NCBI GenBank assembly: GCA_009664345.1
Contig: CP043547.1
Location: 3,810,709 to 3,874,708, forward strand
DNA from: Planctomycetales bacterium 10988
GTDB lineage: Bacteria > Planctomycetota > Planctomycetia > Pirellulales > Pb10988
DNA: 64,000 nt
Direction of reading: 5' to 3'
This document shows, piece by piece, positions 9,079 to 28,749 of the stretch. Position 1 is the stretch's first letter. Each line of letters begins with the position of its first letter. A program made the translations under genes and the position numbers. The notes beneath the pieces are model-generated. The model was not told where the DNA came from, did no database searches, and worked only from the letters and a program-made list of their open reading frames with translations.

Positions 9079-9154
9079 GTCTCACAGAAGTGTTGCATGA
9101 TGCAACCTTGGACACGTTCCGAGTGCCCCCCGCTTCTGGCTGGAAAGGATGCCG

Positions 9155-10243: not shown

Positions 10244-10305
10244 CCTCAACCCAAAAACTATTTTTGACTTTTTTAGCAAAAACCACTTTTTATAATGATC
10301 CTGCC

Positions 10306-11163
10306 ATGAATGAATTGCTGAATACCACTTGGAAGCGGGCCCATCAATGGCAATGGCGTACACGCCGCCGACTGTATCAACAGCGTCATCCTCAGACAAC
10401 GACGCCGGTATTCGTGGTTGGGGCCCAGCGATCGGGCACCTCGATGATGCTCCGGGTGTTCGATTTATCTTGGCATGCCCAAGTCGCCCACACCGGCGAC
10501 AAGCGGATTTATCAAAACGGACTCTTGCGTAGTCACGATATTCTGCACAGTTTTCTTTATCAGTCGAAGGCCCGCCTCACGGTCTTCAAGCCGATGAATC
10601 AATTGCAGTGGAGCCAGGATTATTTAAAGCTTTACCCCGAGCTCAAAATCATTTGGATGGTCCGCTCGATGCCGGATGTCGTCAATTCTTGTGTGCGAAA
10701 ATGGAATTCGATGCGGGAAGTCTTGCTCAATATTCTTAAGGATTCGGGAACCGCCGGTTGGCAAGCAGAGAACCTTTTCCCTTCGCAGCTTGATCTGTTG
10801 AAGCAAACCGTTCATGAGGGGATGACCCTCGAAGAAGCGTATGCCGTCTTTTGGTGTGTGAGGAATCTTTTCTATTTCGAACTTGGCCTCAATGAGCATC
10901 CGCAGGTGAAACTCGTTCCCTACGAAGAGATTGTGCGGCGTCCGATCGAAACAACGCAAGCGATTTTCGAATTTGCCGATTGCCCCTTCGATCCTCAGGT
11001 AACGCGGGAGATCTTCACCTCTTCCGTTGGCAAAAATCCTCAACCGCAACTTTCTTCTGAGATTCAGCAAGCTTGCGATCTTCTCACCGAACGACTGCAA
11101 ACACAGGTGAATCAGCAGAAACGCTGTCGGAAGTTCCAGCCTCGCAGTACTGTCCTTGCCTAA
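10306..11163 (+). CDS. Sulfotransferase family protein
   Basis: The 285-residue protein carries the sulfotransferase P-loop VVGAQRSGTSMMLRVF, which binds the 5'-phosphosulfate of PAPS, near residues 38-53. The region WMVRSMPDVVNS matches the conserved (R)-P-D-V-S segment that binds the 3'-phosphate. Such enzymes sulfate carbohydrates or proteins. An open frame extends upstream to a TTG at 10240 overlapping the deacetylase stop, but the ATG at 10306 is the more natural start; no strong ribosome site is visible for either. It probably shares a transcript with the deacetylase gene. Its presence together with sulfatases later in the window fits the sulfated-glycan biology of planctomycetes. Confidence 0.8.
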   Translation: MNELLNTTWKRAHQWQWRTRRRLYQQRHPQTTTPVFVVGAQRSGTSMMLRVFDLSWHAQVAHTGDKRIYQNGLLRSHDILHSFLYQSKARLTVFKPMNQLQWSQDYLKLYPELKIIWMVRSMPDVVNSCVRKWNSMREVLLNILKDSGTAGWQAENLFPSQLDLLKQTVHEGMTLEEAYAVFWCVRNLFYFELGLNEHPQVKLVPYEEIVRRPIETTQAIFEFADCPFDPQVTREIFTSSVGKNPQPQLSSEIQQACDLLTERLQTQVNQQKRCRKFQPRSTVLA

Positions 11164-11187
11164 ACGGCAAAAAGCACTTTTTAGATT

Positions 11188-12408
11188 CTAAGCAAATTCG
11201 TTTGCATCTTCGCGGGCGGCTTGGCGGAGTTGATGCGGGAAGTGCGGAAAGGCGGTAATGACTCGGGTCCAGTTGGAAATCGCCTCGCCCCCGGCGGGGT
11301 CTTTGCGGAAGGTTTCCCCGGCGGTCATGACTTGGGCGGCGAAGCCTTCCACGGCTTGCTCTTCACTATGGCGGCTAAAGGTCAGGCCATTCATCACGGC
11401 ATCGGCATGATATTGCCGGATCGCGTCTTGAGCCGTTCGCAGATAGGCCGAACGCAAAGAAAGGAAGTGTGCTTCGCTCAAAACTTTCCCACGACTGGCG
11501 AGTGTGCGGAAGATCGTCGTCAGGATATCATTGGCCATTTTCATCAGCCCCCGCGTGGAATCTTCCAGCGAAAGCTCTTGATGTTTATGCTCGTAACTCT
11601 CGCAGAGATCGACCTGACAAACCCGTTTCAACGAAGTGTTGCGGAAGACTTCCGCCAGCGTTCCGACTTCCAAGCCCCAGTCGCTCGGAATACGATTCGA
11701 ACGGGCCAAGTTCGCCGTGACGGCAAACTCACCTGAGAGCGGATAGCGAAAGCTGTCTAGATAATCGAGAAATGAATCGTGCCCCAGCACTGCAATCAGC
11801 GCCCTTAATAAAGGCGAGACGAGCAAACGAACCACGCGGCCATGCAGCCGATCCGTCCGTCGGGCATAGTAGGCCTTGCAAAATTCAAAATCGAACCCGG
11901 CATGGGCCATCGGCAAGCAGAGCCGCGCCAGCATCTCCCGGCGATAATTGACGATATCGCAATCGTGCAAGGCGAAGCAATGCAAGTTCTGATCGGCCAA
12001 GAGATACCCAAAGGCCGTCCACACCGAACGCCCTTTCCCCGGCACCGAGAGCCGAAAACCCGCCTCGTTGAGCTGTTCATACATGGCTTGAATGCGTGGG
12101 CCATCGGTCCAGAGAACTTGTGCCCGATCGCCAAGTTCCGCGACAATCTCTTTGGTTTCGCGATATTGTTCCGCATCGGGAGCCACCCCGAGGACCACGC
12201 AGATGGTGTCGATAAATTCGTTTCCCTTGAGGGCTTTGACGATTTCCCGAAACGGAGCGGCTTGCATATCCGAAGCGGTCACCGGCAGAACGAGGCCGAC
12301 CTTGCGGGTTTGCGTGGCTTCCAGCAGCAGGTCTTCCAACCGATCCCCTTGAATGGTCCCCAGGTCGTGTAAGGTCGTGATGAGTCCATTTTGAAAAAAG
12401 TCGGGCAT
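11188..12408 (-). CDS. GT81-type glycosyltransferase, glucosyl-3-phosphoglycerate synthase-like
   Basis: The 406-residue protein resembles family GT81 enzymes (GpgS, MpgS), which transfer a sugar from a nucleotide donor to 3-phosphoglycerate. Visible marks are the N-terminal GLVLPVTASDM, the donor-binding segment VPGKGRSVWTAFGYLL, and a DxD-type HDCDIVNYRREM. LSGEFAVTANLAR then precedes the acceptor region WGLEVGTLAEVF. AGAGGAAA just upstream supports the ATG at 12408. It lies 63 bases after a glucosylglycerate-phosphorylase-like gene on the same strand, which strengthens a role in glucosylglycerate synthesis. Whether the donor is a glucose or mannose nucleotide cannot be told. No matching phosphatase (GpgP) is seen nearby. 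Confidence 0.75.
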   Translation of the reverse strand: MPDFFQNGLITTLHDLGTIQGDRLEDLLLEATQTRKVGLVLPVTASDMQAAPFREIVKALKGNEFIDTICVVLGVAPDAEQYRETKEIVAELGDRAQVLWTDGPRIQAMYEQLNEAGFRLSVPGKGRSVWTAFGYLLADQNLHCFALHDCDIVNYRREMLARLCLPMAHAGFDFEFCKAYYARRTDRLHGRVVRLLVSPLLRALIAVLGHDSFLDYLDSFRYPLSGEFAVTANLARSNRIPSDWGLEVGTLAEVFRNTSLKRVCQVDLCESYEHKHQELSLEDSTRGLMKMANDILTTIFRTLASRGKVLSEAHFLSLRSAYLRTAQDAIRQYHADAVMNGLTFSRHSEEQAVEGFAAQVMTAGETFRKDPAGGEAISNWTRVITAFPHFPHQLRQAAREDANEFA

Positions 12409-12471
12409 CGGTCGTTTCCTCTAACAACAAACGGTCAAGATTGTACGCTGGTGAAGTTCACCGAGGGGCAG

Positions 12472-14205
12472 CTATTCCTGAATGGCTTCGATCCAAGCCA
12501 CTTGGAAAGGTTCTAGTTCAAAACGTTGGTCGGGATCGATCGGCGTATCGGTCAACAGATCGCGGCTGAAAGGCAAGGCCGTATGCTCGCCGATGCGGAC
12601 GCCTTTGGTTTTCGAAGTCGCATTGATCAAGACCAAGATGAAATGTTTCTCGTCGGTAGCTCGTCGCAAGACACCGATCAGGCCGGCGGGTAAATCCTCC
12701 CAAATCGATTGCGAGGCCGAGGGATCGAAGGCCGGTTGCGACTGGCGAATCTTGAGCAGATTTTGATATCCTGCGAAGATCAGCCCCGAGGAGGTCTGCT
12801 CTGCATCGACCTGATCCTTGAGTTCGTCGTAGTTGAACTTGTGGCGATTGATGCGGCGATTGATGCCACTTGCCTCCACGCCAGCATAATCATTCGGCGT
12901 CCCGACAAGGCTATGGAAGTAGATGCCGGGGATTCCTTGCAGGCCGAGCATCAAACCTTGGCTCGCCAAAAAGCGGCGGGCGTGCAGGTCCGACGACATC
13001 GGATTCTCTTCGGTTCCGCCGAGGGCATCGACATAGGTAATGTTCATTTCATAAGGCGAATCGGTGCCGTCGGGATTTCGCTTGGTATTGATCTTGCCGC
13101 CACGATCGCGAACGGCTTCGACCAGGGTCTTGAAGCGTTCATCGGGAACAAGGCCTTCCAGCGGACGGACGCCGACGCCATCGTGCGAAGCGGTAAAGTT
13201 GAAGTAGGTCATCCCTTCGCCGGGTGGACTCAAGCCGCTGAGCCATTTGATTAAATATTGCGGGTCTTCGGAAAGGAAGGCATCAAGCAAGAGCGGCGGC
13301 AAGCTGAACTGATAAACCATGTGGGCTTCATCGCCATCGCCGAAATAGCTGACATTTTCCCGGTGCGGGACATTCGTTTCGGTCAGCAACAACACCTGAG
13401 GAGCGACGGCATCGACCAAATCGCGGAAGAGTTTGACCATCTCATGCGTCTTCGGATGGTGAATGCAGGTGGTGCCGACTTCTTTCCACAAGTAAGCGAT
13501 CGCATCCATCCGCACGATGCGGGCCCCTTCAGCAATATAAAGGAGCAAAACATCGAGCATCTCCAGGAGAACGCCGGGGTCTTCATAATTCAGATCGACT
13601 TGATCCGCACTGAAGGTCGTCCAAACATGGACCTCGCCTCGGTCTTGGGTTTCGAATTTCGTCAAGAGCGGCAAGCTGCGGGGTCGCGTGACTTGGGATA
13701 AGTCAACCGAGGGGTCCATCTCGATATAGAACTTTTGAAAGCCTGCCTCGCCCTTCAGGAAACCTTGGAACCACAGGCACTCTTGCGAACTGTGATTGAG
13801 AACCAAGTCGTACATCAAGTGGACTTGCTCGCTTAGCTTTTCGGTATCTTCCCACGTTCCCAGGTCTGGATCGATTTGGCGGAAGTCGATGACCGAAAAA
13901 CCATCATCCGAAGAATACGGAAAGCACGGCAAAAGGTGAACCGTGTTGATAATCGAGTCGAGATCGTACTCTCGAAGGAATCGGCCCAGGGTGGCGAGCG
14001 GGGCCTCTTCGGGTTGGCGCACTTGATCGCCATAGGTAATCAGCACGACATCCCGTTGATCCCAACCAGCGGGACTCGCTTGAATGCGATCCTTGTAACT
14101 TTCGATCAATTTTTCGATGTCGGGATAAATCTCCGCCCCACGTTCCCCATAGATTGTTTGCAAACGCGTTTGCATGCGTTGGGCGATCGCTGGTTCCATG
14201 GCCAT
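12472..14205 (-). CDS. GH13 sucrose-phosphorylase-family enzyme, likely glucosylglycerate phosphorylase
   Basis: This alpha-amylase-superfamily enzyme of about 577 residues belongs to the sucrose phosphorylase subgroup (GH13_18). It has HLLPCFPYSSDDGFSVIDF, the catalytic region RMDAIAYLWKE with the nucleophile Asp, the acid/base Glu in LLTETNVPH, and FTASHDGVGVRPL. It resembles E. coli YcjM, as I remember that sequence, over its full length. YcjM-type enzymes phosphorolyse glucosylglycerate rather than sucrose. The neighbouring GT81 gene makes that substrate likely. A TTG at 14247 opens the frame, but GAGGG lies four bases before the ATG at 14205 and ten before the ATG at 14199, so one of those two is the start. 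Confidence 0.85.
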   Translation of the reverse strand: MAMEPAIAQRMQTRLQTIYGERGAEIYPDIEKLIESYKDRIQASPAGWDQRDVVLITYGDQVRQPEEAPLATLGRFLREYDLDSIINTVHLLPCFPYSSDDGFSVIDFRQIDPDLGTWEDTEKLSEQVHLMYDLVLNHSSQECLWFQGFLKGEAGFQKFYIEMDPSVDLSQVTRPRSLPLLTKFETQDRGEVHVWTTFSADQVDLNYEDPGVLLEMLDVLLLYIAEGARIVRMDAIAYLWKEVGTTCIHHPKTHEMVKLFRDLVDAVAPQVLLLTETNVPHRENVSYFGDGDEAHMVYQFSLPPLLLDAFLSEDPQYLIKWLSGLSPPGEGMTYFNFTASHDGVGVRPLEGLVPDERFKTLVEAVRDRGGKINTKRNPDGTDSPYEMNITYVDALGGTEENPMSSDLHARRFLASQGLMLGLQGIPGIYFHSLVGTPNDYAGVEASGINRRINRHKFNYDELKDQVDAEQTSSGLIFAGYQNLLKIRQSQPAFDPSASQSIWEDLPAGLIGVLRRATDEKHFILVLINATSKTKGVRIGEHTALPFSRDLLTDTPIDPDQRFELEPFQVAWIEAIQE

Positions 14206-14455
14206 GGTCCCTCGTCGTTGGTTTGAGGCATCGAGTAAAGTTGACAAAGCCGAGAGCGAACCAAATCCAAGCGGGACGGAACGCCTACGGCTAGTGTCCT
14301 TTGATCCAAGAAGGGCGGGGGAACCCTGGGGATTTCACGCCGGCCGCCGCCTGAGATCCTTGGCGGTCAACGTTAGCTATCATTTATAGTATAGCATCGA
14401 AAGTGGTCCAAGTCTTGGAAGTGACGGACCATTCTCGGTTCAGATTTTGCCAGGA

Positions 14456-15736
14456 CTAGAGATTATCCGCCCCGGTGAAGTTGGTAATGATCGCCCTGAG
14501 CTTCCGCCGCAAGACCGAATAGCTGAAGAAGGCCTTGCCGACTTCGTAGTTGTGATCGACCATTTCTTCCCGATAGCGTTCGTCTTGGATCGCTTTTTGC
14601 ACTTGCGAAACGACTTCGCTGGTGAGAATGCCATCCATCGGAATGACCTTAGCCCCTTTCGGCTCGATATCGGTAATATAGATCGAGTAGCGGTTGACCA
14701 AGACCGGCTTGCGGAAGTAAAAGGCCTCCAACAGGGCGTTCCCAAATCCTTCGTACAAACTGGGATAGGTGATAAAGTCGGCCTGTGAATAGGCATCGGC
14801 CAAGGTGTAAATCTTTTCCCCTTTGGCATTCAGGGTGCGAATTTCACCAACGCGATCCCCGATGAATCGTAGATCGACGCCACGGTGTTCGGCCATTTCT
14901 CGCAAAGCCTGACGGTAAGTATCGCCCTCATCGCCGGAAGCGTGCGAGACAATCAACTTGCAACGCGGATCACGCAAGGCGGCCACCAAGGAGATCGAAT
15001 GTTCAATCCCTTTTCGCGGAACCACCCGCGTTGGCTGCAAGAAGATCACATCATCGTCGGAAAGGCCCAAATCTCCGCGTAAGCATTGCGAATAATCATC
15101 CGGCTCCGGTGGGGGATTTTCGAAGTTGAGGACATTCGGCACTAGGATCGAACTGACCCCTTTTCGCCAAGAAAGGTCTTGTTGAGCGGCGGAATTGATC
15201 GTCACATGCTGAATCGATGGGAGTCGTGGCGGGAAAGCCATTTCCAACATATCCCCAGCGGCATTCACCGAGAAGCGATCGCGTTCCCAATAGAAATCGT
15301 GATGATGAGCAATGGTCGGAAAACCCGTCTCCGCGATAAAGTTCGTCAACGCAATCCCGAGCGGAATATTCATCGGAATCGTCAACGCATTTTGAACGCA
15401 AAGGATTTCGATATCGAACTTTCGGGTGAAGTCGTAGAGCGTCCGTTTGAGGTGTTCGCTTAACGCATAAATAATACGTGTCACTTCCGGAGCACGGGTG
15501 CGGGGGCCGAAGATTCGCTCGTTGATCCATTCATTGTCCGGCGTATTGAAGTACGCGTGAGTCACCAACATGCTGGTTTCTGGATCGCGGTCGAGTTGCC
15601 CGGCGTACCAAAAACTCTGATGTCGATGATCCCAGAGGACCTGCGCCCATTTGGCACTTTCTAAAGAAACCCCATCTGTTCCGGCAAATCGAGTGGAGAC
15701 AAACCCGATCCGATGACCCAGCCGTTGCGCTTTCAT
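14456..15736 (-). CDS. GT4 glycosyltransferase, possible mannosylglucosylglycerate synthase
   Basis: The 426-residue protein has a GT-B fold. The N-terminal Rossmann half begins [20 protein letters not shown], and the donor half contains [15 protein letters not shown] and the EX7E-type segment [18 protein letters not shown]. Planctomycetes such as Rhodopirellula are known to make mannosylglucosylglycerate using a GT4 enzyme, and this N-terminus resembles that type. The neighbouring GT81 and GH13 genes fit the same pathway. The frame stays open back to 15922, but that part is translated from an 82-bp repeat, so the ATG at 15736 is preferred. A 250-base gap separates it from the next gene, which may have its own promoter. 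Confidence 0.75.
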
Positions 15737-16201
15737 GCAAAATGCCTTAACGAGCAAAAGGTTCAAGCAGCGTTCTGGTCGCGCTTGCTTGGTTCTGATT
15801 CTGATGAAAAGGAAAGCTACGTAGTTAGAGCTTGTGGTCAAAAGTCCATCGAGAGCCACTTTTCCAAATACCCAACGGTTTCCTGTCAGATTTTGACCAC
15901 CGGCTCTTAGGAAAACTTTCACGATCTTTGGGGGAAGTTCGCCATTTCCGGTTTTCCTACTCTCCAGGTTCTAAAGTCATTTGCTCTCTTTTCCTAGTAG
16001 GCCCCGGTTTCTTTTTCTTGGATTCCTCGATTCTTTTGGAAAATTCTGGCCGGATTCTCGGGAGAAATCCTCATTATTGGGTCCTTGAGCCAATAGGAGT
16101 CCAATGGTAAAATTTTGGCTTTTCCCGAAGCAACTTTTGCATTGAAAAGTGAAAATGCACCAGGTTGCCCCTTGTTTCACCCTGCCTAGGCGATCCTGCC
16201 C
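15737..16201. other. Divergent spacer with one repeat copy
   Basis: These 465 bases lie between the divergently oriented GT4 and leuB genes and must hold both promoters. The only structure seen is repeat family 1, copy 2 (15827-15908). The stretch 15909-16201 holds no convincing open frame. Confidence 0.5.
15827..15908. repeat. Inverted-repeat family 1, copy 2
   Basis: This 82-bp element has ends AGAGCTTGTGGTCAAAA and TTTTGACCACCGGCTCT. Reversing the second gives AGAGCCGGTGGTCAAAA, so 14 of 17 terminal bases match. The same ends bound the copy at 3438. Confidence 0.65.
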
Positions 16202-17582: not shown

Positions 17583-20153
17583 ATGATGCCCGACCTCTTC
17601 CGTAACGCTACCCAAAAACACCACCATGATACCCCCCTCCACCTAGAACAGCTGGAATCTCGACAACTCCTCACTGTTACTCCGACACTTCTAAGTATCA
17701 ATCCCTCAGGGGATGCATCGCCCGCTCAACTGACAGAGGTGAGCGGGACAACTTACTTTGCTGCAAACGATGGTACTCATGGCGTGGAACTTTGGAAATC
17801 CGACGGCACGTCCACTGGTACGCAACTCGTCAAAGACCTTCGTAGTGGCAATCTAAGTTCAAGTCCAAAGTACCTGACCAACCTGAATGGCACCCTGTAC
17901 TTTTCGGCCAATGGAGATAATGGAAGCCTTTCCCTGTGGAAAAGTGATGGGACTTCAATAGGTACCGAACTCATCCAAGAAACCAAGGCTCGCAGCATCA
18001 CCAATATCGACGGCACGCTCTTTTTCTCCGCACCTGCTCCCAATCCAGGGCTTCCGAATTTGATGCTCAAGCAGCTTTGGATGAGCGATGGAACCGAGGA
18101 AGGTACCGTCCCCATTGAATCAATCGGTGGAGATTCTGGCTATTATCCTATCTACCTGACCAACGTAAATGGAGTTCTGTTCTATCAGGGTGCTTACACC
18201 GGAGGGCTTTGGAAGAGCGATGGGACTTCGGCGGGCAGTTATATGGTGAAAGACCCTTATCCCTATGTAGGTTCAGGCGACTTTGGCACCCATGTGGAGG
18301 ACTTGAGAAACGTCGATGGCACGGTGTTCTTTACGGCTGATGATGGCACCTACGGTCGGGAATTATGGAAGAGCGATGGGACCTCGACAGGAACCGTGAT
18401 GGTCAAGGAGATTCGCCCTGGCCCTTATTCACCACCGATCTATTTTACCCCTCCTGCTCGCTATCAAGAACGCGAAAATGCGAACGTGAACGGAGTCCTC
18501 TTCTTCCGCTTTAACGATGGTTCCTATGGAATGGAACTGTGGAAAAGTGATGGGACGTCTGCCGGGACCGTGATGATCAAAGACATCAATCCCAGTGGGG
18601 ACTCGGTGGGCCCCTTCATGGCAAATATCAATGGTACTCTATTTTTCACTGCCAATGATGGAAGTACCGGCGTTGAACTGTGGATGAGCGATGGGACTTC
18701 CAGCGGTACAAGGCTGGTCAAGGATGTTCATACAGGAGGAAGCGATGCTGAGATTTCTTGGATACGAAACGTCAATGGAACGGTATTCTTCAATGCCAAT
18801 GATGGAACCCATGGCTCTGAACTTTGGATGACGGACGGGACTTCCAGCGGTACAGGGCTGGTCAAGGACCTCAATCCGACAGGAGACGCCTCTCCTCACC
18901 AACTTACCAATATCAATGGAACGCTTTTCTTTGCCGCAAACGATGGGAGTAACGGCATGGAACTCTGGCGACTTTCCCATTTTCAAGAAGTTCCCCTGAT
19001 CATCACCAGCACCGACGCCGGGGAAGCGGGAACGGTACGAATTCATGACTCTCAAGGAAACGAGTTGTCGAACTTCTATCCTTATACTTCGTCATTCACC
19101 GGAGGGGTGCGGATTGCGACGGGTGATATTAATGGCGATGGCTCCATGGATATCGTCACGGCGGCTGGACCGAGCGGTGGGCCACACATTCAGGTCTTTG
19201 ACAGCCGGACCGGAGAGCTGATCGATGGGGCTTTGAATAATTTCTACGCCTACCATCCTTCGATTACCGTTGGGGTCTATGTTGCAGTCGGCGATATGAA
19301 CAACGATGGGTTTGATGATATCATTACCTCCCCGGATGCCGGGGGTGGACCACATGTGAAGGTCTTTAGCGGGCAAGATGGTTCGGTGATCACTGAGTTT
19401 TATGCCTATACGCCAAGCTTCACGGGGGGCGTTCGGATCGCCTCTGGGGATGTCAATGGGGACGACAATGCGGAGATCATTACGGCTCCAGGTGCTGGTG
19501 GCGGACCGCATATCTTGGTCTTCAGTGGAACGACAGGTTCCGCGCTTTCGGTACCGGCAACGAATTTTTATGCCTATGACCCAAGCTTTTTGGGTGGGGT
19601 TTACATTGCCTCCGGGGATATTGATAACGACGGACTTGATGACATCATCACCGCACCGGGATCGGGACTTGAACCTCGCGTGAAGGTCTTTAGTTCGGAT
19701 GACGCATCTCTCTTGCAAAACTTTTATGCGTATGATCCATCGTTTACCGGCTCCGTTCGAGTCGGTTCCGCCGATATCAATCGCGACGGGTATGACGATA
19801 TCTTGACTGTTCCAGGTGCTCCTGGCGGTCCGCATACGCGAGCGTTTAGTGGTACGAACCTGGCCGATCTGGCGAACTTTTACTCCGGTTCTCCGACGAA
19901 CTATAGCGGATTGTTTGTTGCCGGCGGGGTAAACCTAGAGACGATCGACTTGGCAAGCGCCATGTCGGCTCCACTTTCTCACTCTTTGGCAGCGAAGGAA
20001 GCCTTCTTCGCAGACGACTCTGCCGAAGTTGCGTCGGAAGAAAGCAGCATTGAATATCTTCTTAAGGAGAAGAAATCGTGGTGGGAGGAGGCCGATGAAT
20101 TTTATCAACAAGCTGAAGAGATCGATGAACTGTTCAGCGGCTTAGGAATTTAG
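17583..20153 (+). CDS. Secreted ELWxxDGT/FG-GAP repeat protein, paralogue 1
   Basis: This 856-residue protein is the first of four tandem paralogues. Residues 1-34 lack a classic signal peptide but contain PLHLEQLESRQLL, the LExLExRxLL block recurrent at the start of planctomycete extracellular proteins. Eight full ELWKSDGTSxGT repeats and a final partial one (ELWRLSH) follow to about 465; such repeats are expected to build a beta-propeller. Five FG-GAP/VCBS-like repeats (GDINGDGSMDIVTAAG and similar) with Asp-rich calcium-type loops span about 480-770. A charged tail ends in AEEIDELFSGLGI. The likely site is the cell surface or outside; ligand and function are unknown. A terminator follows at 20219, so transcription is probably separate. 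Confidence 0.85.
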   Translation: MMPDLFRNATQKHHHDTPLHLEQLESRQLLTVTPTLLSINPSGDASPAQLTEVSGTTYFAANDGTHGVELWKSDGTSTGTQLVKDLRSGNLSSSPKYLTNLNGTLYFSANGDNGSLSLWKSDGTSIGTELIQETKARSITNIDGTLFFSAPAPNPGLPNLMLKQLWMSDGTEEGTVPIESIGGDSGYYPIYLTNVNGVLFYQGAYTGGLWKSDGTSAGSYMVKDPYPYVGSGDFGTHVEDLRNVDGTVFFTADDGTYGRELWKSDGTSTGTVMVKEIRPGPYSPPIYFTPPARYQERENANVNGVLFFRFNDGSYGMELWKSDGTSAGTVMIKDINPSGDSVGPFMANINGTLFFTANDGSTGVELWMSDGTSSGTRLVKDVHTGGSDAEISWIRNVNGTVFFNANDGTHGSELWMTDGTSSGTGLVKDLNPTGDASPHQLTNINGTLFFAANDGSNGMELWRLSHFQEVPLIITSTDAGEAGTVRIHDSQGNELSNFYPYTSSFTGGVRIATGDINGDGSMDIVTAAGPSGGPHIQVFDSRTGELIDGALNNFYAYHPSITVGVYVAVGDMNNDGFDDIITSPDAGGGPHVKVFSGQDGSVITEFYAYTPSFTGGVRIASGDVNGDDNAEIITAPGAGGGPHILVFSGTTGSALSVPATNFYAYDPSFLGGVYIASGDIDNDGLDDIITAPGSGLEPRVKVFSSDDASLLQNFYAYDPSFTGSVRVGSADINRDGYDDILTVPGAPGGPHTRAFSGTNLADLANFYSGSPTNYSGLFVAGGVNLETIDLASAMSAPLSHSLAAKEAFFADDSAEVASEESSIEYLLKEKKSWWEEADEFYQQAEEIDELFSGLGI

Positions 20154-20218
20154 AAATTCACTCCCTGAAACAGTGTGGCTTATAGTTCGCAAGCCCTATT
20201 ATTACTGAAAACTCTTTT

Positions 20219-20256
20219 AAAAGGCCGTGTTGGGAAAACACGGCCTTTTTTTATTT
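20219..20256 (+). terminator. Rho-independent terminator of paralogue 1
   Basis: AAAAGGCCGTGTT (20219-20231) pairs with AACACGGCCTTTT (20237-20249), and the T-run continues to TTTTTTTATTTTT. It begins 66 bases after the stop codon. Confidence 0.9.
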
Positions 20257-20395
20257 TTCTTTAATCCATTTGATGAGTTGCTCCGTTCTCGATTCCTACT
20301 AAGCAATTTAAAATCGCCCTGATTGAGTAAGAAGATGGCACCTCCAAACCGGACCATTAACCTTACCAAAAGCAGAAGAACCTATTCTCTAAGCA

Positions 20396-20477
20396 GCTTG
20401 GACAAAACTTTCCGAAGTAAAGTAAAATCGCTTGCGTTTGAGTGTTTTAGGAAGACTTCAATCCGTTTTGTCAGAGC
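20396..20477. repeat. Inverted-repeat family 2, copy 3
   Basis: This 82-bp element has ends GCTTGGACAAAAC and GTTTTGTCAGAGC. Read in reverse, it carries the same interior (AACACTCAAACGCAAGCGAT) as the copy at 3523. Confidence 0.7.
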
Positions 20478-20694
20478 TTCGAAATTCTATTTTCTATAAA
20501 ACCCTTCAATAAATAAATGTGCGAAGTGTCAGATTAAACAACTTGTTTTTACCAATCTTCCATTCTACATCTTTTTTTTCTATTTAACTTCGCGATTCAA
20601 ATCTCTCTTTTATTGATAAAGAATCTCTTTTCACGATGGCTAACGAGACAGCTAGCCACACTCTTCCTTGCACGTTTTCGGAGAACTTCTGTCC

Positions 20695-23241
20695 ATGAAT
20701 TGGTTTTCTTCCTTTCAAAACTCACATCGGCGTGAGCAACAAAAAGATACCCCTCTTCAAATTGAACAACTTGAAACACGGGCCTTGATGGCGGGCGATC
20801 CGGTGCTCCTCGATATTCATGATGGAGCCGGGTCCTCAAATCCGCAACGCTTTGAGGAGATGAATGGGTTTGTTTACTTTGCGGCCAACGATGGAATTTA
20901 CAATGTTGAATTATGGAAAAGTGATGGAACCTCTGCGGGAACGGAGCGGGTTCGAAATATCAATCCCGCCGGCAGTGGCAATCCCAGCAATTTAACCAAC
21001 GTCAGCGGGACCCTCTTTTTTCGGGCGAACGATGGCAATGGTTACGAGCTTTGGAAAAGTGACGGAACCTTCGGGGGGACCGAGTTGGTCAAAGACCTTG
21101 ATGGCTCCCCTGGCAACTCTTCGCTCGGTCGATTTACCAATGTAAATGGAACGTTGTTTTTTACGGCGAATGATGGGGTTCACGGCTCGGAACTATGGAT
21201 GAGCGACGGAACTTCCGAAGGGACGGTGCTCGTCAAAGACATCCGCCCTGGGGCAGTCAACAGTCTGGTTTCGGACCTGATAAATGTCAATGGAACGCTC
21301 TTTTTTGCCGCAGATGATGGGAATTCAGGGAAAGAACTTTGGAAAACGGATGGGACTTCCGGGGGGACCGTGCTGGTCAAGGATATTGATCCTGGGGCAT
21401 CGGGCTCTTCGCCGCTTTACTTAACGGAAATGAATGGCACACTCTTCTTTCAAGCGAACGACGGCGTCACCGGCTATGAATTATGGACCAGTGATGGAAC
21501 CTCCGGCGGAACGCAGCTTGTCAAAGATTTTAATGATGGAGGTGACTTCTCCCCGTTCAACTTCTCCAATGTGAATGGCACGATGTTCTTTTCAGCCAAT
21601 GGGGGAACGGCCGGATTTGAATTGTGGCGTAGCGATGGAACCTCGTCAGGGACCGTCATGATCAAGGATATCAATGTCGGGGCACCTTATTCCAGCCCTC
21701 TTTATATCACGAATGTCAATGGGACGGCCTTTTTCCAAGCGGACGACGGTCTGCATGATTTCGAGTTGTGGATGTCGGATGGGACTTCGTTAGGAACACA
21801 ACTTGTGAAGGATATCTTTGCTGGTGCCGGAGATAGTAGCCCCCAACAGTTAATGAATGTCAATGGAACGCTTTTCTTTTCAGCGACCGATAACAATGGC
21901 GATACGGAACTCTGGATGTCGGATGGAAGCTCCGCCGGGACCGAGCGTGTGGCCGATCTTCGAGAGGGAGATGACGGTTCTACTCCCTCAAATTTATTCA
22001 ATGCAAATGGGACGCTCTTCTTCTCGGCGAGTGACGGGGTCAATGGCAGGGAGTTGTTCGCCCTCGATTTAGCGGTCGAGACCGGGCTTGTCGTGACGGG
22101 TGCGGATGCGGGAACGCCGGGGATCGTGCGGGTTTTCGATGCTCCAGGGAATGAAGTCCTTAACTTTTTCCCGTATACGCAAGCCTTCACGGGGGGCGTT
22201 CGCGTAGCCACCGGGGATATCAACGGCGATGGCGTGCTTGATATCGTCACCGCTGCCGGGCCGGGCGGAGGGCCGCACATCCAGGTCTTTGATACCAGTA
22301 CCGGCCAACTGATCACCGGGGGAGTCAATAACTTTTACGCGTATGCTCCGCATGTTACGAGCGGAGTCTTCGTGGCAGTCGGCGACGTAAATGACGATGG
22401 CTTCGACGACATCATCACCGCGCCCGATGCTGGTGGCGGGCCGCATGTAAAGGTTTTCAGCGGAAAAGACGGCAGCCTCATCAATGAGTTCTACGCCTAT
22501 GCCCCGCATGTCACCACCGGGGTCCGCGTAGCAGCGGGAGATGTGACCGGCGATCACCGGGCCGAAATCATCACGGCTCCCGGAGCGGGCGGCGGACCGC
22601 ATGTTCGGGTCTTCGATGGAGCCAGCTCCGTGGGAATTCCGATCGCCGGCCCTGCGACGGACTTCTATGCCTATGCCCCGAATGTGTTGACCGGTCTCTA
22701 CCTCGATGTCGGTGATGTCAATGGCGACGGGCTGGGGGATATCATCACGGCCCCTGGAGCGGGTGGCGGGCCGCACGTGAAGGTCTTCAGTTCCGCGGAT
22801 GCCTCACTCTTGCATGACTTTTATGCGTATGATCCTGGCTTCACCGGAGGCGTTCGCGTCGCGCTGGCGGATTTAACACTCGACGGATTTGCCGATCTGA
22901 TCACCTCCCCGGGTCCTGGGGGCGGCCCGCATGTGAAAGGTTTCAACGGGCTTGATCTTTCCTCTTTAGGGGATTTCTATTCCGGCGATCCAGGCAACAC
23001 CAGCGGCCTCTTCATTGCCGGCGGAGTAAGTTTATTTCCAGACGATATCGAACAACCCATGTTGTTTTCTTTGCCCTTTGAAAATGAACAGAAGTCAGCA
23101 GAATTTTCTATCGAAGAAACAAACGAGCTTGAGCTTGTACCAAGTTTCTTTAAAAAGAAATCCTGGCTCGATGATGCCGATGAATTTTATTCACAAGCAG
23201 AAGAAATCGACAAACTCTTCAGCGGTCTGGGGATTGAATAG
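20695..23241 (+). CDS. Secreted ELWxxDGT/FG-GAP repeat protein, paralogue 2
   Basis: From the ATG at 20695 (a TTG at 20668 is less likely) the product has 848 residues. The N-terminus starts MNWFSSF and carries DTPLQIEQLETRALMAG, the family variant of LExLExRxLL. Eight full ELWxxDGT repeats plus the partial ELFALD follow. Five FG-GAP-like repeats come next, rich in AGPGGGPHxxVF and FYAYAPHVTxGV units. The C-terminus ends KKKSWLDDADEFY, then AEEIDKLFSGLGIE. Blocks of the nucleotide sequence closely match paralogues 3 and 4, which suggests repeated duplication or gene conversion. Function is unknown; the architecture suggests a calcium-stabilised extracellular double propeller. Confidence 0.85.
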   Translation: MNWFSSFQNSHRREQQKDTPLQIEQLETRALMAGDPVLLDIHDGAGSSNPQRFEEMNGFVYFAANDGIYNVELWKSDGTSAGTERVRNINPAGSGNPSNLTNVSGTLFFRANDGNGYELWKSDGTFGGTELVKDLDGSPGNSSLGRFTNVNGTLFFTANDGVHGSELWMSDGTSEGTVLVKDIRPGAVNSLVSDLINVNGTLFFAADDGNSGKELWKTDGTSGGTVLVKDIDPGASGSSPLYLTEMNGTLFFQANDGVTGYELWTSDGTSGGTQLVKDFNDGGDFSPFNFSNVNGTMFFSANGGTAGFELWRSDGTSSGTVMIKDINVGAPYSSPLYITNVNGTAFFQADDGLHDFELWMSDGTSLGTQLVKDIFAGAGDSSPQQLMNVNGTLFFSATDNNGDTELWMSDGSSAGTERVADLREGDDGSTPSNLFNANGTLFFSASDGVNGRELFALDLAVETGLVVTGADAGTPGIVRVFDAPGNEVLNFFPYTQAFTGGVRVATGDINGDGVLDIVTAAGPGGGPHIQVFDTSTGQLITGGVNNFYAYAPHVTSGVFVAVGDVNDDGFDDIITAPDAGGGPHVKVFSGKDGSLINEFYAYAPHVTTGVRVAAGDVTGDHRAEIITAPGAGGGPHVRVFDGASSVGIPIAGPATDFYAYAPNVLTGLYLDVGDVNGDGLGDIITAPGAGGGPHVKVFSSADASLLHDFYAYDPGFTGGVRVALADLTLDGFADLITSPGPGGGPHVKGFNGLDLSSLGDFYSGDPGNTSGLFIAGGVSLFPDDIEQPMLFSLPFENEQKSAEFSIEETNELELVPSFFKKKSWLDDADEFYSQAEEIDKLFSGLGIE

Positions 23242-23286
23242 ATCACAAAAACAAGTAAATAAAAGTATTTAAAAGTTTATATTATT

Positions 23287-23332
23287 AGCCAGGGAGTACA
23301 AATCGATTGTATTCTCTGGCTTTTTCTTTTTT
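23287..23332 (+). terminator. Rho-independent terminator of paralogue 2
   Basis: AGCCAGGGAGTACAA (23287-23301) pairs with TTGTATTCTCTGGCT (23307-23321), leading into TTTTTCTTTTTT. It starts 45 bases after the stop. Its sequence is unrelated to the terminators of the other paralogues. Confidence 0.85.
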
Positions 23333-23472
23333 AAAGGTAGGTATTTTACTTAAATAGAAAGTTTAACCACTACTTAATATGGAAAAGCGTGATTTCTCTA
23401 CATATAGCTTTATAGTGGAGACGGTTCCTTTACTTTCGATGAGCCTCCAATCATAGCTAGAAGGATTTATTC

Positions 23473-25875
23473 ATGCAGTGGAAATCACTTTTTCAAAAGC
23501 CCTTCCATTCACATCAACGACTTCAAGAAACACCTCTTCAATTAGAATCTTTAGAAAAACGCCAACTTTTGGCAGCCGACGGTTTAGTAATTGATATCAA
23601 TGCCGGGGCACCAAGTTCCAATCCTGATGCGATCGCCGAACTCAATGGGACCGCATTTTTTTCCGCGTCTGATGGTTCCTTCGGCTTTGAACTCTGGATG
23701 AGCGACGGAACCTCCGCAGGGACGCAGTTGGTAAAAGATATCCGGCCAGGATCACAAAACTCCGATGTCGATCTCCTAACGAATGTAAACGGAACCCTCT
23801 TTTTCAAGGCAAATGATGGGTCCAATGGCGCTGAACTCTGGAAAACCGATGGGACTTCTGCCGGCACCGAACTGGTAAAAAATATCCGTCCCGGTAGCTC
23901 AGGTTCGAATTCACTATCGATGGTGAATTTTAACGGCACGCTTTTTTTCCATGCAAACGATGGCTGCTACGGATATGAGTTATGGAAGAGTGACGGAACT
24001 TCCAGTGGAACGGAATTGGTCACCGATATCATTCCCGGCATCACGGGCAGTGATCCCCGATATCTTACCAATGTCAATGGAACACTCTTTTTTGGGGCTG
24101 ATGACCCAACGAATGGGGAAGAACTCTGGAAGAGCGACGGAACCTCCGCCGGGACGATGCTCGTGTCCGATATCAATCCTGGTACGGCAGATGCGTATCC
24201 GCTGGGGCTCACCAACTTCAACGGAACACTCTTCTTCCGGGCGAATGACGGAAGCCTTGGCCGAGAACTTTGGAAAAGTGATGGAACCTCCTTGGGAACC
24301 GTCCTGGTGAAGGACATTAACCCCGCTGGTGAATCGATCCCTGTCGATTTGACGGAAATGAACGGTACCCTCTTCTTTGCTGCGACCGATGGTTCCTTCG
24401 GCTTTGAGCTCTGGAAGACCGATGGAACTTCTGCCGGCACGGAACGAATCACCGATATTCAACCTGGCCCCGACTCTGGAGTTTCGGGCTCCGGCTTCGA
24501 TCCGGGCATGGTCAATGTCAATGGAACTTTGTATTTCCGAGGGAATGATGGAAGTACGGGAATCGAATTATGGCAGAGCGATGGCACCTCTGCCGGGACG
24601 ATGCTGCTCGATGACATCAACCCAGGCGCGGGCGGTTCTTATCCTATCCTCTTAACGAATGTGAACGATACCCTCTTTTTCCGAGCGAACGACGGAATCA
24701 ATGGTACGGAACTCTTTGTGCTTGGGGAAGCAGACGTCCCCTTCTTTGTCACGGGCAGCGATGACGGTTCCGGTCGAGTGCTGGTCCTTGACGAAAACGG
24801 GGCCGATCAATATTTCCTCTTCCCGTACTCGCAAGCCTTCACCGGAGGGGTCCGGGTTGCCACCGGGGATCTCAACGGAGATGGAAATACGCAGATCGTC
24901 ACGGCTGCCGGACCGAGCGGCGGGCCGAGGATTCGGGTCTTCGACTTAGAAACGGGCAGCCTTTCCAGTGGGGCATTGATCGACTTTTATGCCTATGATC
25001 CCAACTTCACCGGCGGCGTCTTCATCGCCGTGGCCGATGTGAACGACGATGGCTTCGACGATATCATCACCGGAGCCGATGCCGGCGGCGGACCGCATGT
25101 GAAGATTTTCAGTGGCCAAGACGGTTCGCTCATCAATGAGTTCTATGCTTACGCTCCCACCTTCACCGGAGGCGTTCGCGTAGCGGCGGGCGATGTCAAT
25201 AATGATGGCATGGCCGAAGTGATCACCGCGGCGGGCACCGGCGGAGGACCGCATATCCGCGTCTTCGACGGCAACAATACGATCGGCTTCCCGCTTGTCG
25301 GACCGGCGACGGACTTTTATGCCTATGATCCCAACTTCACCGGCGGCGTCTTCGTCGCTTCCGGCGATGTCGATAACGATGGTTTCGATGACATCATTAC
25401 CGGAGCAGGGGAAACCGGCGGGCCGCATGTGCGGGCCTTCAGTTCCGATGACGGTAGCATGTTGCATGACTTCTATGCCTATGATCCTAGCTTCACCGGC
25501 GGGGTGCGGGTTGCTTCCTTCGATTATAATGACGATGGTTACGACGATATCATCACCGGGCCGGGGCCTGTCTCTGGGCCGGCCGTGCGGGTCTTTAGTG
25601 GGATCGACAGTTCGCTGCTGACGAGCTTCTTCGCCGGCGATTCGCAGATTGAATTCGGCATCTTCGTCGCTGGCGGAATGGGAACCTTGCCGGAAGTTCC
25701 CTTCCCCACCTCGGCACCTTTTTCGAGTTCCTTTGTCAGTGAAGATTCCGATCCGCCAGAAGATGTGAACGTCGAAAGCCCGACCGCGAAGAAATCGTGG
25801 GTCGACGACGCCGAAGCCTTCTTTCAATCCGCCGAAGAAATCGACAAACTTTTCAGCGGCCTAGGAATTGAATAG
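23473..25875 (+). CDS. Secreted ELWxxDGT/FG-GAP repeat protein, paralogue 3
   Basis: This is an 800-residue paralogue. The N-terminus starts MQWKSLF and holds ETPLQLESLEKRQLLAADG. Seven full ELWxxDGT repeats and a terminal partial copy (ELFVLGEAD) are followed by five FG-GAP-like repeats with GDLNGDGNTQIVTAAG, DVNDDGFDDIITGAD and similar units. The C-terminal tail reads KKSWVDDAEAFFQS, then AEEIDKLFSGLGIE. It is one repeat shorter than paralogues 1 and 2, as expected from unequal exchange between repeats. AAGGA precedes the ATG at 23473. A terminator at 25921 closes the unit. Confidence 0.85.
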   Translation: MQWKSLFQKPFHSHQRLQETPLQLESLEKRQLLAADGLVIDINAGAPSSNPDAIAELNGTAFFSASDGSFGFELWMSDGTSAGTQLVKDIRPGSQNSDVDLLTNVNGTLFFKANDGSNGAELWKTDGTSAGTELVKNIRPGSSGSNSLSMVNFNGTLFFHANDGCYGYELWKSDGTSSGTELVTDIIPGITGSDPRYLTNVNGTLFFGADDPTNGEELWKSDGTSAGTMLVSDINPGTADAYPLGLTNFNGTLFFRANDGSLGRELWKSDGTSLGTVLVKDINPAGESIPVDLTEMNGTLFFAATDGSFGFELWKTDGTSAGTERITDIQPGPDSGVSGSGFDPGMVNVNGTLYFRGNDGSTGIELWQSDGTSAGTMLLDDINPGAGGSYPILLTNVNDTLFFRANDGINGTELFVLGEADVPFFVTGSDDGSGRVLVLDENGADQYFLFPYSQAFTGGVRVATGDLNGDGNTQIVTAAGPSGGPRIRVFDLETGSLSSGALIDFYAYDPNFTGGVFIAVADVNDDGFDDIITGADAGGGPHVKIFSGQDGSLINEFYAYAPTFTGGVRVAAGDVNNDGMAEVITAAGTGGGPHIRVFDGNNTIGFPLVGPATDFYAYDPNFTGGVFVASGDVDNDGFDDIITGAGETGGPHVRAFSSDDGSMLHDFYAYDPSFTGGVRVASFDYNDDGYDDIITGPGPVSGPAVRVFSGIDSSLLTSFFAGDSQIEFGIFVAGGMGTLPEVPFPTSAPFSSSFVSEDSDPPEDVNVESPTAKKSWVDDAEAFFQSAEEIDKLFSGLGIE

Positions 25876-25920
25876 GTCGAGAATCGAGTTGAACTGACTT
25901 TTTGCAACATCGCAGGATAT

Positions 25921-25953
25921 CGGGCAGGCTTCAAAAGGAGTCTGCCCGTTTTT
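25921..25953 (+). terminator. Rho-independent terminator of paralogue 3
   Basis: CGGGCAG (25921-25927) pairs with CTGCCCG (25942-25948), followed by TTTTT. It lies 46 bases after the stop codon. Confidence 0.8.
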
Positions 25954-26076
25954 CATGGGGAAGCGATGCCTGATCGCTTTTGATTCTGCATGGCTTCTAG
26001 TCAAGAGAAGGGAAATAGATATAGTGAACAACAGATTTCAATCGTGCCCTAAAAATAGAAATAGAGGATCGAAGGT

Positions 26077-28749
26077 ATGCCGTGGAACTTTTTGGAAGAC
26101 CGTTCCGTCCGATCGGCCGAGGACACCATCCTGCAACTCGAACAGCTGGAAGACCGTCAGCTACTCGATGCAGAGGCGTACCTGATCGACATCAATCCTA
26201 ACGGCAATTCCTCGCCGAATCACTTCGCGGAGCTGAACGGAACAGCCTTCTTTGCGGCAAACTTTGGGAGCCTGGGGACGGAGCTGTGGATGAGCGATGG
26301 GACTTCCGCCGGGACGCAACTCGTCAAAGACCTTCGTTCCGGAACCGCGAGTTCCACGCCGAAGTACCTCGTCAACTTCGAAGGGACCCTCTTCTTCCAA
26401 GCCAACGGCGGCAGTGAAGGAACCGAACTATGGAAGAGTGACGGGACTTCCGCAGGGACGCAACTTGTGAAAGATATCTTCGCCGGCGCTTCCAGCTCCT
26501 CGCCAAAGGCTTTTGCCGAACTGAACGGCACGCTCTTCTTTGAAGCCAACGATGGCTGCAACGGACGGGAATTGTGGAAAACCGATGGAACTTCCCTGGG
26601 TACTTCGCTGGTCGCGGATATCAATGCGGGCAGCGGGTCCGGGATCCCGAATGGGTTATTCAACTTCGACGGGACGCTTTTCTTCAGCGCCAACAATGGC
26701 TCCAATGGCACCGGGTTCGAACTCTGGACAAGTAACGGAACTTCCGGCGGAACGCAACTTTTTGCGGACCTTTGGCCCGGTTCGATCGGGGCCGCACCAG
26801 GGGAATTCACGAATGTCGACGGCACGATGTTCTTTGATGCTTACGCCGGCTCCCTCGGTCGAGAGTTATGGATCAGCGACGGGACGACTACGGGAACGCA
26901 ACTCATAGCCGACATCGTTCCCGGTGCCTATGGTTCGTATCCCGGCGAATTGACCGAAGTCAACGGGACGCTCTTCTTCGTCGTCAATGCCAACGATGCC
27001 AGCAATGGAACCGAACTTTGGAAGAGCGATGGCACTTCCACCGGAACGCAAATCGTGAAAGACCTTCAGGCCGGGTCGGCGAGTTCTTATGCCTCGAACC
27101 TGGTGAATTTGAATGGGACGCTCTTCTTCACGGCCAACGGAGGCAGCAACGGTTATGAACTTTGGCAGACCGATGGGACCTCCGCAGGCACGATGCTGGC
27201 CGATGATCTCATCCCCGGATCGCCCAGTTCCAGCCCTCGTTCGCTAGCCAATATTAATGGCACACTCTTCTTCCAAGCCAATAGTGGAAGCCAAGGGATC
27301 GAACTTTGGGTCCTTGAAGTAACCCCACCGACCCTGGAGATCACCCCCGATGGAGGATCAACGAGTGCGGACCCGATCCTCTTTACCTTTGAATTTTCCG
27401 AAGACGTGACGGGCTTCGAAGCCGGGGACATCTTCGTCACGAATGGAACTGCGGGGACCTTCACGACCGTCGATGCAAATACTTACACGCTGGAAGTCAT
27501 GCCGACCGCCGATGGCGATGTGACCGTGACGGTCGCGGATGGGGTCGCCGAAGACCTCGCGGGCAATGAGAATCTCGGCGACAGCGCTACCATCGAATCG
27601 GACCGCTTCGACGAACTCCCCCGCATCGTCACCGGGTCGGACGCCGGTTCGGGAATCGTGCGGCTCTTTGACGAGAGTGGCAACGAAGTGATGAGCTTCT
27701 TCCCTTATACCGCGGCGTTCACGGGCGGCGTTCGCGTGGCCGCCGGGGATATTAATGGGGATGGCATCCTCGACATCGTCACCGCAGCCGGGCCGGGCGG
27801 CGGCCCGCGTGTGCAGGTCTTCAGCAGCGATACCAGCCCGACGCTCAGCGGACCGCTGATGGATTTTTATGCCTATACTCCTTCGATCACTGTTGGTCTG
27901 TTCGTCGCTGTTGGCGATGTGAATGACGATGGCTTCGACGATATCATCACCGCACCCGACCTCGGCGGCGGGCCGCATGTCAAGGTCTTCAGCGGACAAG
28001 ATGGTTCGCTACTGAGCGAGTTTTATGCCTATAATCCAACGTTCACCGGAGGCGTGCGCATCGCGGCTGGGGATATCGACGGCAACGGCACTGCTGAAAT
28101 CATCACGGCGGCCGGACCCGGTGGCGGGCCGCACATTCGCGCCTTTGAGGGAACAAGCGGCATGCAAATGCCCGGAGCGGCAACAAACTTTTATGCCTAT
28201 GCGGCCAATGTCACCACCGGGGTTTTCGTCGCTGCCGGTGATGTGAACGACGATGGCCTCGACGATATCATCACGGCTCCCGATGCAGGCGGCGGCCCGC
28301 ATGTGAAGGTTTTCAGTTCCGACGATGGCTCGCTCTTACAGAACTTTTATGCTTACGACCCAAGCTTCGTCGGCGGCGTGCGCGTCGGGGCGACGGACCT
28401 CAACTTCGATGGCTTCGCGGATATTCTCACCGTCCCCGGCCCCAGCGGTGGTCCCCATGCCAGAGCCTTCAGCGGCGTGGACTTAGCCGACTTGGCCAAC
28501 TTTTATTCCGGCTTGCCGACGAATAGCGACGGCCTTTTCATCACCGGAGGCCTCAGTGTCGAACCGTTGGCGAAACCGGCCTCAGCGCCGTTCTTCGCCT
28601 CGACGCCTGAAACCGGAAGCAGCCCCCCGGAATCTTTGCTTTCTCAATGGCTGCAACCCAAGAAAGCTTGGACTGAAGACCTCGATGAACTTTATTCCAA
28701 AGCGGAAAAGATCGACCAGCTCTTCAGTGGTCTAGGCATCCAAGAGTAA
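26077..28749 (+). CDS. Secreted ELWxxDGT/FG-GAP repeat protein with Ig-like insert, paralogue 4
   Basis: This 890-residue paralogue is the longest of the four. The N-terminus starts MPWNFLED and contains ILQLEQLEDRQLLDAEA. Seven full ELWxxDGT repeats and a partial copy run to about residue 415. Residues from about 417 to 510 are unique to this copy and resemble a bacterial Ig-like domain (LEITPDGGSTSADPI, FTFEFSEDVTGFEAGDIFV, VTVADGVAEDLAGN). Five FG-GAP-like repeats follow, and the tail is AEKIDQLFSGLGIQE. The extra domain sits exactly at the join between the two repeat regions, as a module insertion would. The next gene is convergent, and I see no hairpin terminator in the 37-base gap. Confidence 0.85.
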   Translation: MPWNFLEDRSVRSAEDTILQLEQLEDRQLLDAEAYLIDINPNGNSSPNHFAELNGTAFFAANFGSLGTELWMSDGTSAGTQLVKDLRSGTASSTPKYLVNFEGTLFFQANGGSEGTELWKSDGTSAGTQLVKDIFAGASSSSPKAFAELNGTLFFEANDGCNGRELWKTDGTSLGTSLVADINAGSGSGIPNGLFNFDGTLFFSANNGSNGTGFELWTSNGTSGGTQLFADLWPGSIGAAPGEFTNVDGTMFFDAYAGSLGRELWISDGTTTGTQLIADIVPGAYGSYPGELTEVNGTLFFVVNANDASNGTELWKSDGTSTGTQIVKDLQAGSASSYASNLVNLNGTLFFTANGGSNGYELWQTDGTSAGTMLADDLIPGSPSSSPRSLANINGTLFFQANSGSQGIELWVLEVTPPTLEITPDGGSTSADPILFTFEFSEDVTGFEAGDIFVTNGTAGTFTTVDANTYTLEVMPTADGDVTVTVADGVAEDLAGNENLGDSATIESDRFDELPRIVTGSDAGSGIVRLFDESGNEVMSFFPYTAAFTGGVRVAAGDINGDGILDIVTAAGPGGGPRVQVFSSDTSPTLSGPLMDFYAYTPSITVGLFVAVGDVNDDGFDDIITAPDLGGGPHVKVFSGQDGSLLSEFYAYNPTFTGGVRIAAGDIDGNGTAEIITAAGPGGGPHIRAFEGTSGMQMPGAATNFYAYAANVTTGVFVAAGDVNDDGLDDIITAPDAGGGPHVKVFSSDDGSLLQNFYAYDPSFVGGVRVGATDLNFDGFADILTVPGPSGGPHARAFSGVDLADLANFYSGLPTNSDGLFITGGLSVEPLAKPASAPFFASTPETGSSPPESLLSQWLQPKKAWTEDLDELYSKAEKIDQLFSGLGIQE

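Follow-up and report, generated by a model that had tools for sequence, protein, structure and literature searches.

An N-terminal motif, Planc_extracel (PF07595), has been proposed as a novel export signal (Studholme 2004, as cited in PMC8567305). C-terminal sorting is represented by PEP-CTERM/exosortase, LPXTG/sortase and GlyGly-CTERM/rhombosortase, whose signals consist of a motif, a transmembrane helix and a basic cluster (PMC3237569). HlyA-type signals of type I secretion are contained in the final 50-60 residues, where an amphipathic helix is required (PMC8870123).

The large putative surface proteins described here have the Planc_extracel motif (the N-tag) at the start of all intact members and a near-invariant 30-residue tail at the end. 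The motif, at the N-terminus, is widespread in the order and also found outside it, whereas the tail occurs in one genome; no C-terminal partner of the motif is mentioned in the part of PMC8567305 drawn on here. As in the PEP-CTERM, LPXTG and GlyGly-CTERM systems, one C-terminal region recurs on differing, putatively exported proteins, but the tail is acidic and has no transmembrane helix, and its carriers are mostly without a classical signal peptide. With the type I signals (HlyA; PMC8870123) the tail has in common a predicted C-terminal amphipathic helix that lacks a membrane anchor and follows calcium-binding repeats; it differs in that its sequence hardly varies among 50 proteins and goes together with a tag at the N-terminus, in a genome where no type I HlyD passes the cut-off.

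The four-gene array

The window is the whole 64,000-nt stretch of DNA that was analysed, and the positions below refer to it. Four plus-strand genes in it share one order of parts.

17583..20153, +: gene 1 (856 aa), N-tag, ELWxxDGT propeller, FG-GAP propeller, linker and tail
17643..17672, +: gene 1 N-tag, LEQLESRQLL
18996..19940, +: gene 1 FG-GAP module (G000:3829704-3830648)
20061..20150, +: gene 1 C-terminal tail, KEKKSWWEEADEFYQQAEEIDELFSGLGI
20695..23241, +: gene 2 (848 aa from ATG 20695), part order as in gene 1
20761..20790, +: gene 2 N-tag, IEQLETRALM (Planc_extracel, PF07595)
22087..23040, +: gene 2 FG-GAP module
23146..23238, +: gene 2 C-terminal tail
23473..25875, +: gene 3 (800 aa), part order as in gene 1; the protein modelled with AlphaFold2
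23542..23571, +: gene 3 N-tag, LESLEKRQLL
24742..25692, +: gene 3 FG-GAP module, predicted six-bladed with a closing C-terminal strand
25693..25779, +: gene 3 variable linker, mostly predicted disordered (pLDDT <50)
25780..25872, +: gene 3 C-terminal tail, predicted helix at residues 776-796
26077..28749, +: gene 4 (890 aa), part order as in gene 1 plus a Big_12 Ig-like insert
26137..26166, +: gene 4 N-tag, LEQLEDRQLL
27625..28566, +: gene 4 FG-GAP module
28651..28743, +: gene 4 C-terminal tail, the most divergent of the four

For gene 2 the ATG at 20695 was used; the mechanical ORF begins at TTG 20668. The ELWxxDGT profile TIGR04534 (NCBIfam) matched all four genes at E 1e-125 to 1e-161, with 8-9 stretches each and scores of 408-523 bits against a curated cut-off of 65, and Pfam FG-GAP matched at E 1e-16 to 1e-18. 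The preliminary description had reported four plus-strand genes with an N-tag, ELWxxDGT repeats, FG-GAP repeats, a linker and a near-invariant tail, and this architecture is borne out by the ORFs, by the profiles and by 14 invariant columns within the last ~29 residues of the four tails. The order of the repeats stands, but their numbers changed: the 7-8 ELWxxDGT repeats are replaced by the 8-9 TIGR04534 stretches, and the five FG-GAP repeats by six predicted blades. The N-tag, given as LExLExRxLL, is present in all four genes, although that wording is approximate, as gene 2 shows.

Read directly from the sequence, the intergenic stretches after genes 1-3 contain hairpin-like repeats followed by T-runs, so the genes look like single-gene units. 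The neighbours of the array are a dehydrogenase-like gene, an alpha/beta hydrolase and folate-pathway enzymes (Pfam pterin binding and HPPK), with sugar and sulfate transfer enzymes farther upstream. No obvious secretion gene was found among the genes flanking the array. At window positions 9149-15922, polysaccharide deacetylase, sulfotransferase, alpha-amylase-family and glycosyltransferase-like genes form a possible sulfated glycan cluster.

A genome-wide tail family

A profile of the four tails gave 56 matches at E <= 2e-10 in the 6.65-Mb genome, and the next best match stood at E 0.01, a gap that makes the 56 more than chance. The four-gene family is thus real, but it is a small part of a 56-copy genome-wide one. 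With all matches read, the tail consensus is K-K-S-W-x-[DE]-[DE]-x-[DE]-E-F-[YF]-x-x-[AS]-E-[EK]-[IV]-D-x-L-F-[ST]-G-L-G-I. The F of LF and the L of GLG are invariant in 54 aligned tails, 5-8 residues follow the conserved LF in 48 of 55 tails, and the stop codon usually comes one residue after the consensus. At least three tails are visibly altered at the end: the one at 3069534 stops after FSG, and those at 3072878 and 2576726 continue into other sequence after LFS.

By pattern, the N-tag is present in all 50 tailed frames with an intact N-terminus; the six tailed frames without it are broken or truncated, and at least three of these have an upstream N-tag in another frame. PF07595 exceeds the Pfam cut-off at 16 places in the genome, including genes 2 and 3 of the window. 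The proposal that tail and N-tag are partners therefore holds from tail to N-tag (50/50) but fails in the other direction, since about 17 N-tag ORFs are without the tail and end in DUF4214, in a hydrophobic stretch with basic residues, or in other C-termini. The tail is thus confined to some of the N-tag proteins, and an ELWxxDGT body can occur with it or with another C-terminus. On the N-tag/ELWxxDGT proteins L077 and L120, also from this genome, the C-terminal module is instead DUF4214 (PF13946), a folded domain of ~70 residues, unrelated to the tail in sequence. Three very large N-tag ORFs, of 7658, 7563 and 5941 aa (L111, L116 and L112; G000:C1 650818-, 438834- and 721111-), have C-termini that resemble polymorphic-toxin tips, each different from the other two and from the tail class.

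Most carriers have bodies of ~8 or 14-17 ELWxxDGT repeats, numbers that agree with one or with two eight-bladed propellers; others have Big_12 Ig-like arrays or bodies without ELWxxDGT. An FG-GAP module stands directly before the linker and tail in every carrier, except for a 106-residue fragment that is too short to tell. The recurrence of one C-terminal region on varied bodies in a genome, a property of sorting signals, is thus seen in 56 copies, but always after FG-GAP, and the transmembrane helix and following basic cluster of such signals are not found in the tail. The preliminary description had held that a tail occurring only as part of the last FG-GAP blade in unrelated proteins would speak against a signal. 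The constant position after FG-GAP goes part of the way towards this, but a ~30-residue unconserved linker lies between blade and tail.

Selection and recombination

Mean pairwise identity is 0.21-0.26 in the linker, ~0.65 in FG-GAP and 0.81 in the last ten tail residues. Comparison of paralogues shows saturation at the synonymous sites of the tail, with pS at 0.79 and, over the final 12 codons, at 0.82; pN/pS is lowest in the tail core, at 0.12, against 0.30 for FG-GAP and 0.66 for the linker. The saturated synonymous sites together with the low pN/pS of the core indicate that the tail is preserved by selection and not by recent copying; the saturation also rules out that the tails are alike through recent gene conversion.

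Recombination was screened by exact nucleotide matches; blastn at 90% identity misses mosaic blocks. No exact 40-nt run is common to any two array genes. An exact 944-nt block joins the copies at 5075240 and 407502, and blocks of 535 and 217 nt join 407502 and 5086485, which makes 407502 a mosaic; the two genes that contribute to it lie 4.7 Mb off on the contig. The tail family is mosaic in places and the four-gene array is not visibly mosaic, so that the variation by recombination suggested for the family was seen in dispersed paralogues but not in the array. The exact-block loci (L080, 402000-409500, and L064, 5068500-5087500), at one of which frames are broken, are a case of recent ectopic recombination.

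Predicted structure

The gene 3 protein was modelled with AlphaFold2 using 26 paralogues (mean pLDDT 80). In the model, an eight-bladed ELWxxDGT propeller and a six-bladed FG-GAP propeller closed by its last strand (blades counted from the strand list) are followed by a disordered linker at residues 742-778 and a C-terminal helix at residues 776-796, the latter predicted with moderate confidence (pLDDT ~54). Foldseek on the model returned propeller proteins in general, and by sequence FG-GAP weakly matches integrin alpha-V. The predicted tail helix is amphipathic (moment z 2.7 versus shuffles), with a mean charge of -5.4 and with hydrophobic positions (W, V/A/T, F, A/S, I, F, L) spaced 3-4 residues apart. 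Transmembrane character is absent at the C-terminus: over the last 60 residues the 10-residue Kyte-Doolittle mean never exceeds 1.94, and the mean of the maxima is 1.1. Nothing like a Sec-type signal peptide was found before or in the N-tag of most tail proteins.

Distribution and a second private tail

By profile search the tail is absent from 57 other genomes of the same order and from 391 other genomes of the phylum, the matches at E 0.003-0.3 being at chance level, and GTDB, with one genome per species, gave chance matches only. Three Bacteroidetes matches from GTDB were considered as homologues and rejected, the two examined lying inside a hydrogenase-like iron-sulfur protein. The tail was not found in viral contigs, and plasmids gave only weak FG-GAP matches that stop short of it. 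The term private applies to the tail at the family level, the sample being without other genomes of the same family or genus. The N-tag is found in 52 of 58 genomes versus one for the exact tail. In relatives, an FG-GAP protein often has nothing after the closing strand, and in two genomes of the same order (G007 and G025) related FG-GAP proteins (L125 and L126) have PEP-CTERM at the tail's place. The N-terminus of L126 is a Sec-like signal peptide. Loss of exosortase as the reason for a new tail is ruled out, as this genome has one, like 53 of the 58 genomes. Dockerin was rejected as a C-terminal part, with no PF00404 in the genome.

Another genome of the same order, G039, has a tail family of its own, with 14 copies at E < 1e-6 by a G039-tail profile and a best match of 0.0039 in 78 other genomes. 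The carriers that went into that profile start with the N-tag and have EF-hand-like repeats, not FG-GAP, ahead of the linker, and three of the G039 carriers read further have ELWxxDGT bodies. Two lineages thus have two private tails that share the core D-x-[AL]-F-[AS]-x-L-G, and this pattern is enriched at held-out N-tag C-termini.

A short pattern, [DE]-x-[AVLIF]-[FLW]-[AS]-x-[LFWYI], was derived from 20 N-tag C-termini of five relatives, mainly of family f6. It is present in 11 of 57 held-out N-tag C-termini (1.1 expected from shuffles, with a maximum of 6 in 2000) and in 2 of 55 adjacent upstream stretches. A matrix trained only on sites from those 20 C-termini matched 12 of 57 at 8 bits, where shuffles gave 1.7 and the 84 control ORFs 6%; with it, IDxLFSGL is the best site in most of the genome's own tails. 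The 16 training sites were chosen by eye, and the shared core is short and degenerate. A pattern fixed in advance of a second held-out set was found in 6 of 19 sequences of that set versus 0.08, although five of those six are G039 paralogues. A C-terminal domain beginning like VDAVLAEWGSSHTYATRVANL is common to L324, L291, L319 and L321 (G037, G046, G001 and G017); it follows RTX-type repeats in L324 and L321, and its first helix resembles the tail core.

Alternative explanations

The tail could act in export of the type I kind: a C-terminal amphipathic helix that is not cleaved off and that, lying behind calcium-binding repeats, initiates translocation through a membrane-fusion/TolC conduit, with the N-tag serving another role. 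The lack of anything like a Sec signal peptide in most members, the calcium-type DxNxDG loops immediately upstream of the linker, the resemblance to the helix-dependent ends of HlyA-type proteins, and two GAF-HlyD/HlyD/M50-HlyD clusters in the genome, one with a TolC-like gene nearby, are all consistent with such export. It is nevertheless thought unlikely: in the HlyD search the best match of the type I family scored 44.8 against 208.65 bits, below the cut-off, and the M50-HlyD gene is present in 55 of 58 genomes, including some without a detected N-tag or tail. Being near-universal, the M50-HlyD cluster was set aside as a partner of N-tag or tail, its presence or absence being uninformative. 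The two clusters, of GAF-HlyD, HlyD and M50-peptidase-HlyD genes, lie at L189:6034-11431 and L190:3917-13066, and the M50-HlyD protein has an N-terminal region that by eye resembles PqqD.

Alternatively the tail would be no signal but a part of a single expanded gene family, its end being conserved because it packs against the FG-GAP propeller or aids folding. The disordered, unconserved linker between propeller and tail and the stronger constraint on the tail core than on the propeller both tell against this. So do the many FG-GAP propellers of relatives that end tail-less at the closing strand, and the analogous G039 tail after EF-hand-like repeats. A structural role of this kind would account for the same FG-GAP module before every tail in the genome and fits a family clearly expanded by duplication, and it is regarded as quite improbable. 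Self-association, in which the tails would bundle as coiled coils into a homo-oligomeric or mixed surface layer, draws on the 3-4 hydrophobic spacing and on the fact that one common tail on 50 proteins would allow mixing of all; the mean helix charge of -5.4 is unfavourable for bundling like with like, and this is held to be very improbable.

A proposed docking or sorting signal

The tail is read here, with slightly more belief than doubt, as a lineage-private C-terminal docking or sorting signal that is paired with the conserved N-tag and served by one shared reader. That the tail behaves like a signal, as the preliminary description had it, is upheld by the 56 dispersed copies with the N-tag on every intact carrier and a fixed place near the C-terminus, by a core that comes after a variable linker and is more tightly constrained than both of its neighbouring segments, and by the PEP-CTERM or different private tail that other genomes have in its place. 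Counting against a signal, the tail never occurs without FG-GAP in this genome and so may be inherited with it as one module. No tail partner was found, and the dedicated export or anchoring system proposed earlier was not identified.

Under the signal reading, the N-tag would bring the protein into the export route of many planctomycete surface proteins, and the disordered linker would hold the acidic amphipathic helix away from the propellers. One shared envelope partner may then read the tail helix and either complete secretion or keep the protein at the surface. If that partner drifts, all its clients would follow, and many cargos with one partner would yield tails that are near-identical within a genome and different between genomes. 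More tentatively, planctomycetes may possess a two-signal system in which the conserved N-tag is combined with a fast-evolving, genome-private docking helix on the core D-x-[AL]-F-[AS]-x-L-G, with a coevolving reader, as a lineage-specific lock and key. C-terminal sorting signals as a kind and the N-tag are already known; the open-access literature gives weak evidence that a non-membrane, genome-private tail paired with the N-tag is undescribed.

The export and attachment of very large surface proteins in planctomycetes is an unsolved problem, and for the N-tag, itself a proposed signal, no reader has been described. A private tail in more than 50 copies, with an independent version elsewhere, can serve as bait, and an envelope protein that binds it would identify the machinery. 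If the tails are lineage-specific keys, they would constitute a sorting code that evolves much faster than the sortase or exosortase codes.
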